Origin: a bacterium
Lineage (GTDB): Bacteria > Verrucomicrobiota > Verrucomicrobiia > Limisphaerales > UBA11358
Assembly: GCA_021813325.1 (NCBI GenBank)
Contig: JAKALA010000006.1
Span: 1 to 64,000 of the forward strand
Length of the DNA stretch: 64,000 bases
Direction of reading: 5' to 3'
Shown in pieces: positions 52,467-60,242 of the stretch. The number at the start of each line of letters is the position of its first letter. Positions within the stretch are counted from its first letter, which is position 1. The notes beneath the pieces were generated by a model that had not been told where the DNA came from, searched no databases, and worked only from the letters and a program-made list of their open reading frames with translations. The translations under genes were made by a program, and so were the position numbers.

Positions 52467-53279
52467 GTGAAATCGAACCAGAAATCTTCATTCGAACCTT
52501 TCGACCTGCTGCAAAAAGTGCGGCGGCAAGCGCCCCTGGTGCATCATCTGACCAACTGGGTGACCATTTATGATTGCGCCCAAATTGTCAAAACCCTCGG
52601 CGCGTCGCCCGTCATGGCCCACGCGCCGGAAGAAGCCGCCGACATGACGCAAATCGCCGCCGCTCTGGTCCTGAACATTGGCACGCTGACGGAAAGTTTG
52701 GTGAAGGCCATGAAACTGGCGGCCGCCGCCGCCAATCGGAAAGGCATTCCCGTGATTCTGGACGTGTGCGGCGCCGGGGCGACGCCTTTGCGCGACCGCA
52801 CAGTTTTGGCGCTGCTGGACGAGGTCAAAATCAACGTCATCAAGGGAAACGCCTCGGAAATTGCGCGCGTCGCCGGACAAAATATCCAGACCAAAGGTGT
52901 GGACGCCGGCGAGGTTTCCGCGGATTTGGAAACGCTGGCAAAAACGCTCGCCGCCCGGCGTCAAGCCACGGTGGTCATCACCGGCGCAACGGACATCGTC
53001 GCGAGCGAAAAGCAGCTTTACCGTGTCAAGAACGGTCACGACTTGATGACCCGCGTCGTGGGCACCGGCTGCATGGCAACCTCCGTCATTGGCGCGTTCG
53101 CGGCCGTCGAGGCGGATTATGGCCGGGCGGCGGCGGGCGCGCTGGCTTGTTATGAAATCGCGGCGGAGCTGGCGGCGGAAAAGTCCCAAGGCCCGGCGTC
53201 ATTTAAAGCCGGACTGTTTGACTGCCTTTATCAGCTCGATGCCGCGACCGTTGCAAACAGGCAACGCCTCGAAACGTGA
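52467..53279 (+). CDS. thiM: Hydroxyethylthiazole kinase
   Basis: This 270-residue protein starts with GTG. APLVHHLTNWVTIYDCAQIV, ALGASPVMAH-like LGASPVMAHAPEEAADM, LVLNIGTL, VILDVCGAGATPLRDRT, VIKGNASEIARVAGQ and VVGTGCMATSVIGAFAA are ThiM hallmarks; the Gly-Thr-Gly-Cys region holds the active site. It phosphorylates the thiazole moiety for thiamine salvage. The gene overlaps thiE by 4 bp (GTGA). No TPP riboswitch was found upstream. Confidence 0.94.
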   Translation: MKSNQKSSFEPFDLLQKVRRQAPLVHHLTNWVTIYDCAQIVKTLGASPVMAHAPEEAADMTQIAAALVLNIGTLTESLVKAMKLAAAAANRKGIPVILDVCGAGATPLRDRTVLALLDEVKINVIKGNASEIARVAGQNIQTKGVDAGEVSADLETLAKTLAARRQATVVITGATDIVASEKQLYRVKNGHDLMTRVVGTGCMATSVIGAFAAVEADYGRAAAGALACYEIAAELAAEKSQGPASFKAGLFDCLYQLDAATVANRQRLET

Positions 53280-53878
53280 AAGGCTATTACTTCATCACGG
53301 ATTCACAATTGAGCCGCGCCGGCAATGTCAGTGACGTTCAACAAGCGGTAGCCGCCGGTGTCGCAGTGGTGCAATACCGTCGCCCCAAAGCCTCCACTGC
53401 GGCGCTGTTCGCGGAGGCCTTGGTTTTACGCCGGCTTTGCCGGGGAGCGCTTTTTCTGGTTAATGACCGGGTGGATATTGCGCTGGCCGTCGAGGCCGAT
53501 GGTGTGCATCTCGGTCAAAGCGACCTCCCGATCGCCGCCGCCCGGCTATTGCTGGGTCGTGGAAAAACCATCGGACTGACCGTTCATTCCGTCAAGGAGG
53601 CTGCCGAAGCAGCCGCGGCGGGAGCGGATTATCTGGGCGTTTCTCCCATCTACACCACGCAAACTAAAGCTGATGCCGGCCCACCGGCAGGCATCGCATT
53701 GATCCGACAAATCAAGCAGTTGGTGAAGCTTCCGCTTGTGGCCATCGGCGGCATCAATCTGGCCAATGCGCCGGCAGTCATCCATGCTGGCGCGGATGGA
53801 ATTTGCGCGATTTCCGCCGTGCTAACGCAGGCAGATGTCCGGGCGGAAATTGGAAAATTTCAACGGCTTTTCCAATGA
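53276..53878 (+). CDS. thiE: Thiamine-phosphate synthase
   Basis: The 200-residue TIM barrel has YYFITDSQLS, AVVQYRRPKA, LFLVNDRVDIALAVEADGVH, LGQSDLPIAAAR, GADYLGVSPIYTTQTKADAG and PLVAIGGINLANAPAVI. It joins HMP pyrophosphate and thiazole phosphate. It starts with GTG overlapping the thiM stop, which suggests coupled translation. Confidence 0.94.
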   Translation: MKGYYFITDSQLSRAGNVSDVQQAVAAGVAVVQYRRPKASTAALFAEALVLRRLCRGALFLVNDRVDIALAVEADGVHLGQSDLPIAAARLLLGRGKTIGLTVHSVKEAAEAAAAGADYLGVSPIYTTQTKADAGPPAGIALIRQIKQLVKLPLVAIGGINLANAPAVIHAGADGICAISAVLTQADVRAEIGKFQRLFQ

Positions 53879-54624: not shown

Positions 54625-55413
54625 TCAAAGGTTATTCCGGGCAGCGCGTTCGCCGGCCAGCACGGCGGCTCCCAAGGCACCGGTGAATTGCGGTTGAGAA
54701 ACCACGCCTACTGGACACGCCAAAACTTCTTCCAAGGCCCGCGCCATGCCGGGCTGCAACGCCACCCCACCCGTGAAATAAACCGGGCTGGCCACGGATC
54801 TTCCGGCTAACGCGGCCACGCGTGTCGCGATGGCTTTTTGCACCCCGGCCACGACGTCGGCCAGCGGCTTGCCCTCGGCGAGCAGACCGATGATTTCCGT
54901 CTCGGCAAAAACCACACACATATTGCTGATGAGCGCGGGTTTTTGACTTTGATGGGCCAGTTCGGAAAGCGTGCTCCAATTCATGTTCAGCCGCGTGGCG
55001 ACCATTTCCAAAAAACGTCCGGTGCCCGCCGCGCAGCGGTCGTTCATGGCAAAATCGCGCACGCGCCCGCCGTTTTCCAGGCTGATGACTTTGCTGTCCT
55101 GCCCGCCGATCTCGATGATGGTGCGCGTTTCGGGCGCCAACTGGTGGACGCCGCGGGCGTGACAGGTGATCTCGGTGATGGTCGTGTCGGCAAACCGGAT
55201 GGCGTTGCGTCCGTAGCCCGTGGCGATGACGCCGGAAATCTGCGCGCGTTCCAGACCTGCCTCAAACAGGATTTTATCAAATAGCTCCGTGGCCAGGCGC
55301 TCCTGTTCCACACCCTGATCGCTGACACCCGCCGCGAGAATTTTGCCCGTGTCGGTGTCAAGTAACACCGCTTTAATCGAGCGCGATCCCGCATCTATTC
55401 CGGCGCAAAGCAT
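54625..55413 (-). CDS. Acyl-CoA dehydratase activase (BadF/HgdC-type ATPase)
   Basis: The 262-residue ASKHA ATPase has GIDAGSRSIKAVLLD, ATGYGRNAIRFAD, IIEIGGQDSKVI and NDRCAAGTGRFLEM, then NMCVVFAETEIIG. The Cys in the last two motifs bind a shared [4Fe-4S] cluster between two subunits. Such activases use ATP to inject low-potential electrons into dehydratases of the HgdB/BcrC group. It is the last gene of the five-gene operon and the only energy source in it. Confidence 0.93.
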   Translation of the reverse strand: MLCAGIDAGSRSIKAVLLDTDTGKILAAGVSDQGVEQERLATELFDKILFEAGLERAQISGVIATGYGRNAIRFADTTITEITCHARGVHQLAPETRTIIEIGGQDSKVISLENGGRVRDFAMNDRCAAGTGRFLEMVATRLNMNWSTLSELAHQSQKPALISNMCVVFAETEIIGLLAEGKPLADVVAGVQKAIATRVAALAGRSVASPVYFTGGVALQPGMARALEEVLACPVGVVSQPQFTGALGAAVLAGERAARNNL

Positions 55414-55415
55414 GA

Positions 55416-55475
55416 AAAAGGCTAAGGGCTAAAGGCTGAAGGCTAAAGTGAATTCGGTTTTAAGCCTTTAGCCTT
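55416..55475. repeat. Heptamer inverted-repeat cluster 1
   Basis: GGCTAAG, GGCTAAA and GGCTGAA units at 55419-55448 face AAGCCTTTAGCCTT at 55462-55475. The stop codon and last codons of the HgdB-like gene fall inside it. Confidence 0.8.
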
Positions 55476-56846
55476 GTTTCTTGCGGTTTCCACCAAGGCT
55501 TCCAGACGCGAGGTCATTGTTGGCAGCATGGCATCGCAAACCGGTGGTATTTCCATTTCCACCACGGGAATGCCAAGTTCCTGCCGGACCATTTCGCGGA
55601 TGCTTTCGCCTTCGCGCGCGCAATGGCTGGCGCCAGGAATGCGCGATATGACCACGGCCTCCGCATCATAAGTCTGGCATTCGCGAATGATGCGTTTCGC
55701 GCGATCACTGGCCGGGCCAACCATCGGGTCGGCCAGGGCCGTCCGCGCCAAAGCTTCCAAGGGCGGCAGGCTTTCGGGGATCAAGTCCAGCGCATGGGAA
55801 AACATAAAATCTGTGCCGCAAAGACGGCCGCCAACATCTTCCAGCAAATTCATGGCGCGCAGGTCAGCAACGGGATTTACCCAAAAAATCCGCACGGCAT
55901 CTGGCGGGAGCACGAATTGGTTTTGCTGCATCCGCCGTTGCGCTTCGGCCAACAATTCACCGAGCACCAATCCCGCCTCTGGACGGTCGGAACAGAAATG
56001 GATTGCCAGCATTTCCGCGATAAGCATTTCCAGCGCTGGCAGCGGGGCGGCGGGCGCGGAGTAAACGGCTTGCCGAAGATCGGCGAGAATTTGGCGGATG
56101 TGATTGGCGGCACGGATACCGTCAGTTAGCGCCGAGTCACCCAGACTTTTTCCGGCAAGCTGGCCCAGTGCGTCCGCCACGCGCTGCAATTCCGCCCGCA
56201 CCGCCTCCACCTGGCTTCGTGGCGCCAGCAGTTTTCCCGGCAGTTCACAGGAGGTTTCGCCAACGGCCGGCGCGCGCCGGCGCGGGATTTCCCACCAGAA
56301 CACCGGATGCCCGCGATGCTCGAGCCGTTGTGCGATGGCCGAAAAATCGTCGCAAACTGCGCCGGTGCTGCAGATGATCAGTTCGGGTTTCGGGAAGTGT
56401 TCGCCGTTCTCAAACGCCGGCAGCATGGCGCGCACCGGACAAAACGAAGCATCAACGCCCATCGCCGCGGCCTGCTGCAACAACTTGTCGCTGCATTCCA
56501 TGAGGCATGGCGTCCACCATGCGCCGTCGGGATAAAACGCCCGCACGCCAGGCAACGCGTAAGCCATCACCGGCACAGTGCCGAGGTCTTTCATGGTGCC
56601 GACGATTTTGTCACCCGCCGTTCTGGCCTGATGGAGCCGCGAATTTTCGGTGAGAAAAAAATTCCAAAGACGCAGCGCGGCGGGCGAGTTGTCGAATTGC
56701 AACTGTTCGAGGCGAAAATCCTTTTCCAACTCCACATGCCGCCGAAGCGGTCCGCCGTAAAAAGGTTCGCGCCGGCCGGCCTGCTGAAGCTGAAGATGGC
56801 GCTCCCCCCAGTCGGCGAGGCTCAGTTTGCGGGGCGCGGCGAACAT
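55443..56846 (-). CDS. 2-hydroxyacyl-CoA dehydratase-type subunit (HgdB/BcrC family)
   Basis: The 467-residue protein carries Cys-containing segments TPCLMECSDKLLQQAAAMG, FCPVRAMLPAFENGEHFP, and LIICSTGAVCDDFSAIAQRL, with GASHCAREGESIREMVRQEL near the end. These resemble the iron-sulphur subunits of 2-hydroxyacyl-CoA dehydratase or benzoyl-CoA reductase families. It has probably a [4Fe-4S] site fed by the activase downstream. The last residues (KAKGLKPNSL) are encoded in the heptamer repeat. The substrate is unknown. Confidence 0.8.
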   Translation of the reverse strand: MFAAPRKLSLADWGERHLQLQQAGRREPFYGGPLRRHVELEKDFRLEQLQFDNSPAALRLWNFFLTENSRLHQARTAGDKIVGTMKDLGTVPVMAYALPGVRAFYPDGAWWTPCLMECSDKLLQQAAAMGVDASFCPVRAMLPAFENGEHFPKPELIICSTGAVCDDFSAIAQRLEHRGHPVFWWEIPRRRAPAVGETSCELPGKLLAPRSQVEAVRAELQRVADALGQLAGKSLGDSALTDGIRAANHIRQILADLRQAVYSAPAAPLPALEMLIAEMLAIHFCSDRPEAGLVLGELLAEAQRRMQQNQFVLPPDAVRIFWVNPVADLRAMNLLEDVGGRLCGTDFMFSHALDLIPESLPPLEALARTALADPMVGPASDRAKRIIRECQTYDAEAVVISRIPGASHCAREGESIREMVRQELGIPVVEMEIPPVCDAMLPTMTSRLEALVETARNKAKGLKPNSL

Positions 56847-56850
56847 GGGA

Positions 56851-56923
56851 AAAAGCTAAAAGCAAAAGTTGATACGCTAAACACAATTTTGCTTTCAGCC
56901 TTTAGCCTTCAGCTTTTAGCATT
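56851..56923. repeat. Heptamer inverted-repeat cluster 2
   Basis: AGCTAAA and AGCAAAA units at 56854-56867 face GCTTTCAGCCTTTAGCCTTC and AGCTTTTAGC at 56891-56920. The neighbouring gene ends within it with LKAEG and TAA. Confidence 0.8.
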
Positions 56924-57867
56924 TCAATAAATGCCTGAAGGCGGGTTTGGTCGCGGGGCGAGCGGCCGGTGGCTTCGCCGGCTTCCAGCAATAGCACCGG
57001 CAGGCCGAACGCTTCGCGCAAGCTTTGCGCCTCGGCACGCCAGAGGTCGCAGCCCGTGAAATGCCAGAGCACCAGCCCGCGCACGCCGCGCGCTGGCAGA
57101 CGCGGTTTCAGCCAGTCATAGAGCCGCGTGTTGGGCCGCTGAAATGCGTCGGTAATGTGATCGAAATATCCGCTAGCCAGCGCTTCAAAAGGATCGCCCG
57201 CATCGACACCTTCCGGGCAAAGGCTGCGCTCGCCAGACTTGGTGGCATTGAGGGTCACGCGTCCTCCCGCTTGTTCCACGCTTTTGAACAGAGTCCAATC
57301 TGATTTAGGGAAAGCGCCGCCGATCAGCGCCAGCGAAATGCGGTCGTCTGACGGGCAGGTTGAAATTTCAGAGCAGGTGCCGTCGCAATGATACGCGGCA
57401 ACGGCTTCGGCCAAAGAACGCGCGTTGGCACTGGGCGCAATCGCACGCAGATTTCGCCGGGCTTCACCTGCGCGGCGAATTTCCTGCCAAAGCGATTTGG
57501 TGTCGGGCGCCGCACCACCCATTTCCTGAAGGAATCGGCCCAGCCGCCTCAGTTCATCGCAATATATTTGCCTCGCCGCCGGTGTCGGCGTGGCGGGCAG
57601 GTTGAACAAAAATACCCGCGACTGGCCGCGAAATTTGCCTTCATCATAACCACGCCGCATTTGATCGCAGGCGGAGGTGAAGACGACTGCATCGGCAGGG
57701 TGGGTTTCGGCAAAACGGACGGTGGTTTCGGCAACCGCGCAAACGCCGGCGGAGAGCGCTACGGGCGCATTGCTCAATCTTTCCTCCAACCAGAGCGGCC
57801 GCGATGTCAGTCCATGAGCCCGAATCCATTCGGCGGGAATCCACGGGCTGGTCAGGAAGACGTTCAT
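56902..57867 (-). CDS. Second 2-hydroxyacyl-CoA dehydratase-type subunit
   Basis: The 321 residues start with FLTSPWIPAEWIRAHGLTSR, the entry motif of HgdB/BcrB-like proteins (approach to the substrate pocket). GVCAVAETTVRF and VVFTSACDQMRRGYDEG carry candidate cluster Cys, and HFTGCDLWRAEAQSLREAFG lies near the end. It pairs with the HgdB-like protein next to it, as alpha and beta subunits do in this family. Its C-terminal LKAEG comes from the heptamer repeat. Confidence 0.8.
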   Translation of the reverse strand: MNVFLTSPWIPAEWIRAHGLTSRPLWLEERLSNAPVALSAGVCAVAETTVRFAETHPADAVVFTSACDQMRRGYDEGKFRGQSRVFLFNLPATPTPAARQIYCDELRRLGRFLQEMGGAAPDTKSLWQEIRRAGEARRNLRAIAPSANARSLAEAVAAYHCDGTCSEISTCPSDDRISLALIGGAFPKSDWTLFKSVEQAGGRVTLNATKSGERSLCPEGVDAGDPFEALASGYFDHITDAFQRPNTRLYDWLKPRLPARGVRGLVLWHFTGCDLWRAEAQSLREAFGLPVLLLEAGEATGRSPRDQTRLQAFIEMLKAEG

Positions 57868-57872
57868 TTATC

Positions 57873-57973
57873 AAGGCTGAAGGCTAAATGCTAAAGGCTG
57901 AAGGTCAAATCGGCTGTGTCCGGCCTGGGCGCTGAATGGTGTTTTTAGCATTCAGCTTTTAGCCTTTAGCATT
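57873..57973. repeat. Heptamer inverted-repeat cluster 3
   Basis: GGCTGAAGGCTAAATGCTAA and AGGCTGAAGG at 57875-57904 face TTAGCATTCAGCTTTTAGCC and TTTAGCATTT at 57945-57974. It is the longest spacing of the four clusters. Confidence 0.8.
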
Positions 57974-58769
57974 TTTCCGCAACGATCAGCCCTTGGATGA
58001 CTTTGCCGGCTTGCGCGAGGGATTGGATGAATTTCATTTCGCCAACCAGTTCGGCCGCCAGGGCAGTGTCAAAACCGATGATTTTCAGCGCGTCGTAAGT
58101 GAGTTGCTTTTCGAGCATGTCGAGATACAGCGGCATTTGGCTGGCAAAGCGTCCGGTGTCTTGCGCCAGTTGCGCGCTACAGCCGCTGGCCTCCAGATGC
58201 GAGCGGTATTCGGCCTGTGAAAGCACGTTGGGAAATTTCATGAACGTGAGATAGCGCGCCGCCTCGGTGTCCGTCATGTCGGTCGGGCCAAGCATCCAAT
58301 CGGTGAAGGCGATTTTGCCGCCGGCTTTGACGATGCGCGCCGCTTCAGTGATCATGGCCCGCTTGTCTTCGACGTAGCACCAGGCGTCCTCGCCCCAGAC
58401 AAAATCAAATTGGCCCGGCGGCAGGCCGCAATCGCTGACGTTGGCTTCGACGAACGTGATTTTATCCGCCAAGCCTTCGGCGGCGACGCGCTGGCGGCCG
58501 AGCTGAATCATGGCGGGCGTGGCATCCACGCCGGTCATGTGCGCCACTTTTTGAAACTGCACCAGAAACTTCAGGCCCGCCCCGGCGCAGCAACAGAAAT
58601 CCACGCCGCGCGAACCTTCAGCGATACCGGCGCAGCGCGCGAGTTCCAGGGAGGATTGCAAACCGCCGAGGTGGATTTGTTCGCCCATGAGGAGCTCCCA
58701 AAGTTTTCCTTCGGCACCGGAATAAACCGCTTGAACATTGGACAGATGAATTTGTGGGGCGGATTTCAT
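57966..58769 (-). CDS. Class I SAM-dependent methyltransferase of the dehydratase operon
   Basis: The 267-residue protein has VDFCCCAGAGLKFLVQF as SAM motif I, with three consecutive Cys where one usually sees Gly-containing residues. It continues with MTGVDATPAMIQLGRQRV, FDFVWGEDAWCYVEDKRAMI and AGGKIAFTDWMLG, similar to glycine/sarcosine- or ubiquinone-type methyltransferases. The gene lies between iron-sulphur subunit genes and probably modifies the same substrate or product. Its stop codon lies in the heptamer repeat. Confidence 0.85.
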   Translation of the reverse strand: MKSAPQIHLSNVQAVYSGAEGKLWELLMGEQIHLGGLQSSLELARCAGIAEGSRGVDFCCCAGAGLKFLVQFQKVAHMTGVDATPAMIQLGRQRVAAEGLADKITFVEANVSDCGLPPGQFDFVWGEDAWCYVEDKRAMITEAARIVKAGGKIAFTDWMLGPTDMTDTEAARYLTFMKFPNVLSQAEYRSHLEASGCSAQLAQDTGRFASQMPLYLDMLEKQLTYDALKIIGFDTALAAELVGEMKFIQSLAQAGKVIQGLIVAEKC

Positions 58770-58770
58770 A

Positions 58771-58866
58771 AAAGGCTAAATTCTAAAGGCTGAAGGCTGA
58801 AACAAGTTTGTCGCAAGAACGCGTGCATATGCTTTGGCATTTAGTTTTCAGCCTTTAGCCTTTGCT
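58771..58866. repeat. Heptamer inverted-repeat cluster 4
   Basis: AAAGGCTAAATTCTAAAGGC and TGAAGGCTGAAA at 58771-58802 face TTTAGTTTTCAGCCTTTAGC and CTTTGCTTTG at 58840-58869. The end of the double-cubane-type gene (KAKAKG and TGA) is formed by it. Confidence 0.8.
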
Positions 58867-60068
58867 TTGATGGTTTCAAATAACGCCTCTACCCGCGCTG
58901 AAATGCGGGCCGAATCCGACGGCGAATAGTCGGTGGTGATTTTCAGATAGGGCAGCTTCAATTCCTCTTCCGCCAGCTTGCGGACTTGGATGGACTCAAT
59001 GTCGTAAGTCAGGCACGCCTGCCAGATGATTTCGATGACGCAATCCGGCCGGAACTTGGCGGACAAGGAGCGGAGCGTGTCGAAACGGCCGGAATTCGGC
59101 GTCAGCACTGAGCAGGGCAGATGATAGTATTTTTTGGCGATGGCGCGGATAGGGGCCGGGTCAGCCGCGTCCACGTCTTCGAGAATCGGCTTGAGGCCGG
59201 TGCAGTTTTCCATGGCCACGACCACCGCGCCGGCGTTTTCGATTAATTCCAGCACGCGTTCCGCGCCATGCACGATCGGCACGCCGGTAAGCAGCACGCG
59301 AATTTCTCGTGGCAGCGACGCCTTCGTCGCAGTCACATTCGGCGACGAGGCGTCGCCGCCACTGGCCGACAAAGATTTCAGCCCGTTTTCATATTGCTGC
59401 AAATCAGCTTCGATGCCCGAGATGATGCTCTTGAATTCGATCAACTGCCGTCCGGTCAATGGCGGCTGGTCCTGCGTCATCAAGTCGGCCAGTTGCCGAC
59501 GCAAGCCGCGCTCGCGATTCATCAACTGAATGGCGGCGCGAAGTTTTTCTTCCGTAATCTGCGTGTTAAATCGTTCTTCGAGATGCGCCTTGAACTTGTG
59601 GAGTTCCTGGGTCCAATGCTCCAGCGCGGCGGCGTTTTCAGCTTTGTGCGGCAGTTCGAGCACATACATGGGCTTGGCAGCGCCCATTAGCTCGAACATT
59701 TTCTTTTTGCCATCGCAGGTGGTCTCGGCCACGACCAGATCAGCCCAGTTCAGGAATGGATTTTTACCGGTGACTTGATAGCCGAACGTGGACTTGATGA
59801 GCGGACAGAGATTGGCCGGAAGGAATTGTTCTGCCGGGGGAATGGTCGCCGCCGAACCGCCGCACAGGCAAACCGGCACGGCGCCGGCGGCCAGAATGAT
59901 TTCGCGCGGGGTGAATTCACACATGATGCCCACCACCGGACGACCCTGCGCCCTGGCCGCCTCGGCGTAGTCGTAGCAATGATCAATCATGTCCTCAAAC
60001 CAACGCAACGCAGCGCCGGCGCTGGCATTGCTGACGCTCGGTTGCGGCCCCGAAGAGCGACATTCCAT
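58848..60068 (-). CDS. Double-cubane-cluster-type reductase, HgdB/BcrC family
   Basis: ATG at 60068 gives 406 residues; TTG at 60128 is another possible start. VVGIMCEFTPREIILAAGAV, PVCLCGGSAATIPP, FLPANLCPLIKSTFGYQ, VVAETTCDGKKKMFELM, AMENCTGLKPILED and IIWQACLTYDIESIQV correspond to the Cys set of double-cubane anaerobic reductases. Those proteins hold an [8Fe-9S] cluster and reduce small substrates with ATP-driven electrons from an activase. It opens the operon, so it is likely the main catalytic component. Confidence 0.87.
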   Translation of the reverse strand: MECRSSGPQPSVSNASAGAALRWFEDMIDHCYDYAEAARAQGRPVVGIMCEFTPREIILAAGAVPVCLCGGSAATIPPAEQFLPANLCPLIKSTFGYQVTGKNPFLNWADLVVAETTCDGKKKMFELMGAAKPMYVLELPHKAENAAALEHWTQELHKFKAHLEERFNTQITEEKLRAAIQLMNRERGLRRQLADLMTQDQPPLTGRQLIEFKSIISGIEADLQQYENGLKSLSASGGDASSPNVTATKASLPREIRVLLTGVPIVHGAERVLELIENAGAVVVAMENCTGLKPILEDVDAADPAPIRAIAKKYYHLPCSVLTPNSGRFDTLRSLSAKFRPDCVIEIIWQACLTYDIESIQVRKLAEEELKLPYLKITTDYSPSDSARISARVEALFETIKAKAKG

Positions 60069-60242
60069 AATGGTGATTGGCTTCAGCGGTTTTGGGATTG
60101 GCGAGGTCAGGAAATACTTCACAAGCAACGGAAAGTCAATGTCCTTGGACGTGCCGCGCAGGCGGGCGACAGTGCTTGACCGGCGGGTAACCTTTCACTT
60201 TCAACCCGTCAGGTAGTTGTGGCATAGTTCATCCCAATTCTG

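Follow-up and report, generated by a model that had tools for sequence, protein, structure and literature searches.

Double-cubane and HgdB/BcrC-type reductases share a mechanism in which a dimeric activase takes electrons from a reductant and, at the expense of ATP, pushes them into the cluster of a partner protein. BzdNO and HAD enzymes apply related clusters to coenzyme A (CoA) esters, and what double-cubane proteins do in the cell is stated to be unknown (PMC11971306). A link between these proteins and selenium has been suggested earlier: (i) a 'dicubane cluster protein' was called provisionally linked to selenium metabolism (preprint, PMC10418091) and (ii) the type 1 mlp clusters, for which a recycling of methyl-selenide was proposed, include a dicubane protein in many cases, 87% of their hosts making selenocysteine (Sec) (PMC10418091). 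Dehydratase subunits and an activase are also listed among the genes associated with the Sec region of Slackia (Lin et al. 2015, PMC5322559 Table 1). Here, we describe a five-gene operon on the minus strand (60068 to 54625) of a 64,000-nucleotide stretch of a Verrucomicrobiota contig (JAKALA010000006.1, positions 1 to 64,000; hereafter the window). The operon brings together a double-cubane-cluster reductase (DCC), an S-adenosylmethionine (SAM)-dependent methyltransferase (MT), a short and a long HgdB/BcrC-type subunit (HgdS and HgdL) and an ATP-dependent activase (ACT), and it belongs to a selenocysteine gene island. We infer that it very probably has a role in selenium metabolism.

The order DCC-MT-HgdS-HgdL-ACT, put forward by the original prediction, was confirmed by the open reading frame (ORF) listing of the window and by the assignment of the families with Pfam and NCBIfam: the five ORFs lie head to tail on the minus strand, separated in gene order by 78, 98, 55 and 29 bp. 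The closest described system for the first and last genes is DCCP:DCCP-R (PDB 6eno, 7yyl, 7yzm). DCC (58848..60068, from an ATG at 60068, with an in-frame TTG further out at 60128) scores 320 bits with the Pfam HGD-D model (PF06050; cut-off 28 bits) and 412 bits with the NCBIfam equivalog NF040772, 'double-cubane-cluster-containing anaerobic reductase' (cut-off 350 bits), and matches the DCCP structures 7yyl/6eno with an E value of 3e-60. It keeps all six cluster-Cys positions of DCCP (C68, C87, C117, C288, C318 and C351, numbered by the first alignment row), which are retained in 61–62 of 62 homologues; known members of this family have an [8Fe-9S] cluster and reduce their substrates in an ATP-dependent way. 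ACT (54625..55413), an activase of the same family as that of DCCP, scores 196 bits with PF01869 (BcrAD_BadFG) and passes the acyl-CoA dehydratase activase model TIGR00241 (241.9 vs 125.4 bits). It matches the PDB activators 4eht, 1hux and 9gai, and its C127 and C166 are invariant in 65/65 homologues. Two features set the operon apart from DCCP:DCCP-R. First, a single activase is common to two more HGD-D subunits, alongside MT and, in many relatives, the selenophosphate synthetase SelD. Second, many DCC relatives bear a Cys-Cys pair close to the N-terminus, unlike DCCP; the pair is present in 35 of 62 relatives and absent from the DCC of the window. The proteins of the L059, L064 and L079 loci, for example, start with such a short tail (M-A/G-K-C-C-G...).

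HgdS (56902..57867; 321 aa) and HgdL (55443..56846; 467 aa) also exceed the HGD-D cut-off, with 123 and 108 bits respectively; with DCC, they are the sole HGD-D proteins detected in the source genome. Both score below the NF040772 cut-off (66 and 46 bits vs 350) and, as read from the alignment, have three and five of the six double-cubane Cys positions, which places them outside the double-cubane proteins. Exactly three Cys of HgdS are invariant (C43/C67/C273, in 75/75 homologues), a set that resembles in number and spread the [4Fe-4S] site of BzdO (C95, C128, C380; PMC11971306), which is likewise limited to three Cys. In HgdL, C114, C136, C165, C285, H408 and D373 are invariant in 81/81 homologues, C343 and C409 are present in 77/81 and 79/81, and a Met replaces the sixth double-cubane ligand position in 80/81. 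Spacing and profile alignments suggest, for both subunits, which residues may be cluster ligands. The AlphaFold model of HgdS (pLDDT 90.8) matches BzdN and DCCP at Z 30 and that of HgdL (pLDDT 83.7) matches BzdN, HadC and DCCP at Z 35, over most of the length in each case.

The pair is best compared with the class I benzoyl-CoA reductases BzdNO/MbdNO and with the 2-hydroxyacyl-CoA dehydratase HadBC, which also consist of two unequal HGD-D subunits with an activase and which the predicted folds match at Z 28–35. However, HgdL differs from these enzymes by its five double-cubane positions and the Met at the sixth, and HgdS by its start: it begins at the position aligned with BzdN residue 30 in the structure match and hence is devoid of the N-terminal helix that contributes to CoA binding in BzdNO (PMC11971306). 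Neither subunit passes any benzoyl-CoA reductase (BCR) or HAD equivalog model of NCBIfam, the class I BCR models included; HgdS, with its three-Cys set and HadBC-like predicted fold, does not reach the HadC model. On the NCBIfam scores, HgdS-HgdL were not filed as a benzoyl-CoA reductase nor, with less certainty, as a dehydratase, and both enzymes are retained as analogies. DCC and ACT are also far from the class I models (65 bits with bzdN, cut-off 453.8; 150.7 bits with bzdQ, cut-off 380.2). We file the operon as a variant of the double-cubane/HAD-type systems, one in a strongly selenium-related context.

The remaining gene, MT (57966..58769), encodes a class I methyltransferase, scores 61 bits with Methyltransf_11 and has the motif-I variant DFCCCAGAG. 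The Cys-Cys-Cys SAM motif read earlier from the sequence is correct: C59 and C60, like C131, are invariant in 65/65 homologues, and C61 is a Cys in 60/65. MT scores below the cut-off of the DVU_1556 methyltransferase model NF045667 (57 vs 155 bits) and weakly resembles arsenite methyltransferase models, with further likeness to phosphoethanolamine and sarcosine N-methyltransferases. An ArsM-like reading was not adopted, as the invariant Cys do not appear to be at the ArsM positions. The idea that the operon encodes selenoproteins was also rejected: neither the five genes nor their relatives have an in-frame UGA where a Cys is expected, so the five proteins are not selenoproteins. In-frame TGA codons occur elsewhere, one at a Phe/Tyr position of an HgdS (L035) and another two at the ACT C-terminus. 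The genome of this HgdS (G004:C11) is 91% complete and has the operon, SelA was not found in it, and the gene is possibly a decaying copy.

We asked whether the gene set is specific to this strain. Relatives of the operon were collected by a scan of GTDB contigs with a profile, which yielded at least 80 loci. Going by the record titles, these belong to seven or more phyla (Verrucomicrobiota, Planctomycetota, Armatimonadota, Sumerlaeota, Hydrogenedentes, Lentisphaerae, Omnitrophota, Myxococcota, Riflebacteria). Of the 80 loci listed, 52 carry the complete five-gene set, and many of the incomplete ones end at contig edges. Among the listed loci, the commonest orders are MT-DCC-HgdS-HgdL-ACT (39 loci) and the DCC-MT-HgdS-HgdL-ACT order of the window (11 loci), and the genes are tightly packed (median intergenic distance −4 bp; 84% at 30 bp or less). 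Within the taxonomic order of the window, HgdL is found in 16/245 genomes of scattered families, with the same neighbours. The set is therefore not strain-specific, and the loss of cluster-binding Cys in relatives, which we also looked for, is not seen in the homologue alignments. As the five genes are widespread as a set and the cluster Cys are retained, the first part of the pathway proposed by the original prediction, in which the five genes act together in an ATP-driven low-potential reduction, is well supported. Its second part, the action on a methylated substrate, may hold; the evidence below shifts the reading towards selenium metabolism.

An unsupervised count of the families that recur in the flanks of the operon, identified with Pfam and NCBIfam, placed SelD, SelA and SelB as the top three. 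At least one of selA, selB and selD is present in 29 of the 49 loci with a flank of at least 8 kb, where a rough estimate for a random stretch of 8–16 kb is about 1%. SelD directly follows ACT in the same orientation in 20/51 loci with room for it (gaps of −17 to 229 bp), and in several it overlaps ACT or sits at most 30 bp away; in many relatives the operon therefore consists of six genes. In six relatives (L039, L055, L069, L073, L101, L115), ARAGORN identified a flanking tRNA-Sec. In three genomes without HgdL (L195, L196, L203), DCC, once with ACT, lies beside selA, selB or selD. The base unit thus appears to be DCC and the activase tied to the Sec island, and HgdS-HgdL-MT appears to be a layer added to it. 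A search for UGA-containing ORFs found no conserved selenoprotein gene in the flanks except a Sec-containing SelD in L043; most of its other hits were shadow ORFs lying antisense to the operon itself. This SelD, on the minus strand near the operon of contig VHCO01000099.1, carries a TGA-encoded Sec in its catalytic site (CAGUASK), against a Cys in 35 relatives. Two further families recur in these surroundings: a Fer4_5 (NapH-like) membrane protein near the Sec island (L039:17568-18479 and similar), which could be an electron route, and a secreted or lipoprotein-like family of ∼450 aa without Pfam match (L065:175-1536 and similar), upstream of MT in 15 loci of planctomycete islands.

The SelD that accompanies the operon has three parts. 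This protein of ∼530 aa comprises (i) a Cys-rich N-terminus with the segment CxC-x5-CPC-x8-CxC, in which the Cys are invariant, (ii) the SelD part (TIGR00476, 327 bits) and (iii) a C-terminal CMD/AhpD domain with a CxxC, preceded by an extra Cys-Cys motif. In the source genome (L153:10087-11673, equivalent to G000:C21:38086-39669), the N-terminus reads CxC-x5-CPC-x8-CPC. The Cys-rich N-terminus has no match in Pfam or among PDB sequences, so that it resembles ferredoxin-thioredoxin reductase (CPC-x8-CxC) at the level of the motif only, and the three-part fusion is not modelled as a family in the profile libraries used. The known SelD fusions, Ndh-SelD and NifS-SelD, are N-terminal only (PMC2398784, PMC4561486). 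They likewise join selenophosphate synthetase to redox or selenium-donor domains; the present protein differs by having both the Cys-rich N-terminus and the C-terminal AhpD/CMD domain with its CxxC. We found no description of either the operon or the three-part SelD in the open literature searched, which misses some key papers.

To what extent the operon and the three-part SelD occur together was assessed in two samples: the 245 genomes of the window's order and, independently, 198 genomes of the class of a planctomycete (G252). In the order sample, the three-part SelD is present in 13/16 genomes with HgdL compared to 3/229 others (Fisher 2e-16); the three exceptions are a genome that is 57% complete, one in which no SelD was found and one with a Sec-type SelD. 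SelA is present in 14/16 genomes with HgdL compared to about 73/229 others (1e-5), and in 16/17 genomes with DCC, the remaining one having the three-part SelD. The source genome itself has selA, selB and the three-part SelD; none of HgdL, DCC, SelA and SelD was found in 16 of its genus siblings. In the class sample, the three-part SelD, some copies of which are fragmented or partly matched, is present in 16/16 genomes with HgdL compared to 10/182 others (Fisher 4e-17). The 20 genomes with DCC, one of them by a weaker match (G323, 289 bits), all fall within the 26 that have the three-part SelD (hypergeometric 2e-22). The distribution in this class is thus nested: HgdL within DCC within three-part SelD. 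In other groups, the three-part SelD is present in 33/36 genomes with the operon, and SelA in 45 of the 49 checked. Kinship among the genomes makes the Fisher values overstate independence, which the two distant samples and the physical linkage compensate.

The constant company of the Sec machinery and the special SelD move the reading from a generic substrate reduction to selenium metabolism. Given the link to SelD, our best guess is that the enzymes provide selenium in the form of selenide, carbon-selenium cleavage being the most plausible route. In such a scheme, ACT would hydrolyse ATP and push low-potential electrons into DCC and the HgdS-HgdL pair, as the conserved Cys and the predicted folds suggest; the substrate of the reduced clusters would be a selenium compound, probably an organic or methylated one, from which selenide would be released; and the three-part SelD would convert this selenide to selenophosphate for SelA and tRNA-Sec. 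MT, with its conserved thiols at the SAM site, would probably act on a selenol or a thiol within this route; such thiols would suit a soft atom, and its substrate is a guess. Our confidence decreases as the scheme becomes more specific. That the operon acts in selenium metabolism and also supplies selenide, whatever the exact substrate, has an even chance of being right. That the module releases the selenide by reductive cleavage is a guess that falls somewhat short of this. The full scheme of an ATP-driven selenium assimilation, in which the double-cubane and HgdB-type enzymes cleave carbon-selenium bonds and pass selenide to a redox-armed SelD, is put forward tentatively, as possible rather than probable.

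Two analogies would agree with a release of selenide. The type 1 mlp clusters share with the operon anaerobic Sec-making hosts, a dicubane protein and a proposed release of selenide from methylated selenium; they differ from it in that the present operon has a SAM methyltransferase and HgdS-HgdL. The Mlp corrinoid methyltransferases, the corrinoid protein and the Ram/RACE activase are not among the families that recur in the operon flanks, a count that covered the flanks only. The methylthio-alkane reductase MarHDK uses nitrogenase-type clusters to cut carbon-sulfur bonds (PMC12552129). By analogy only, it is likewise a low-potential metallocluster enzyme that cleaves a carbon-chalcogen bond; unlike the operon enzymes, it is nitrogenase-like in protein and clusters and acts on sulfur instead of selenium.

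Several observations weigh against the selenide scheme. In the source genome, the operon, selB-selA and the three-part SelD are on three different contigs. The absence of HgdL from 10/26 genomes with the three-part SelD in the class sample means that Sec does not require the module, and the five proteins, devoid of in-frame UGA at Cys positions, are not selenoproteins themselves. Adjacency and co-occurrence speak for a shared process, not for a particular reaction. Finally, as free selenide forms easily in anoxic cells, the need for an ATP-driven reductase rests on an unproven organic source of selenium.

The alternative that survives best, although we regard it as unlikely, is that the operon is an anaerobic carbon pathway of the dehydratase or reductase type and depends on a selenoprotein whose gene lies elsewhere, the Sec machinery being its supplier. 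It is generally known that Sec genes are often located near their main client and that HGD-D enzymes of known carbon substrate act on CoA esters, and the SelA frequency in operon genomes would be as expected. However, no conserved selenoprotein gene was found in the flanks beyond the SelD of L043, HgdS lacks the helix that aids CoA binding in BzdNO (PMC11971306), and both the position of SelD directly after ACT and the tie to one SelD form, tighter than that to SelA generally, are at odds with a mere supplier.

It is rather improbable that the module serves to protect the cell, by reduction and methylation of selenium (or arsenic-like) compounds, and not to feed SelD. The three invariant Cys of MT, two of which are in the SAM motif, its weak similarity to the DVU_1556 and arsenite methyltransferase models, and the Cys-Cys tails of many DCC proteins would all suit such a detoxification. 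However, SelD, SelA, SelB and tRNA-Sec would then be unnecessary, MT also resembles the N-methyltransferases mentioned above, and no MT is seen beside DCC in the three islands without HgdL.

That the operon and the Sec genes are two systems typical of anaerobes in these phyla, transferred together without joint function, is disfavoured, and we give it little chance. The patchy distribution and the absence from the genus siblings do suggest gain or loss as a block. Against this stand the SelD genes that overlap ACT or nearly touch it, the conservation over at least seven phyla, the nested distribution in the class sample and the persistence of DCC beside sel genes where HgdL is absent. Least probable of all is that selenophosphate made by SelD serves to insert selenium into the iron-sulfur cluster carried by DCC or by HgdS-HgdL, for instance as a bridging atom, in analogy to the selenium-dependent molybdenum hydroxylases: SelD frequently lies right after the activase, DCC is confined to genomes with the three-part SelD in the class sample and two reports describe a SelD-dependent cofactor trait (PMC2432076, PMC2276186), but SelA, present in nearly all operon genomes, would be superfluous for such a trait and the double-cubane clusters known so far are reported to contain sulfur (PMC11971306).

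With selenide supply as the preferred reading, the position of the operon beside SelD in many phyla and the nested distribution lead to a short list of testable substrates for double-cubane proteins. Were carbon-selenium cleavage to prove true, the module would be a selenium counterpart of methylthio-alkane reductase and the first physiological role for the double-cubane family. Beyond the selenium link suggested earlier for DCCP, the operon brings in two further family members together with a methyltransferase and a form of SelD that the literature searched does not describe, and it points to a route for selenium in the PVC group and in other bacteria not yet cultured.

Two features of the window concern its immediate layout. 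Heptad repeats of the AAAGGCT/TTTAGCC type (55414..58860, unstranded), identified by TRF and in the spacer sequences, occupy all four spacers of the operon, with TRF rows at 55417-55448, 56892-56924, 57873-57904, 57944-57974 and 58786-58801. The repeats are frequently arranged as facing inverted arms, and a regular-expression scan placed nearly every match of the window in the operon spacers. In the relatives, the operon genes mostly overlap where the window has these repeat-bearing spacers; the arrays look like mobile or expanding intergenic repeats. Beyond the end of the operon, convergent with it on the plus strand, lie ordinary thiamine genes encoding hydroxyethylthiazole kinase and thiamine phosphate synthase (52467-53878).

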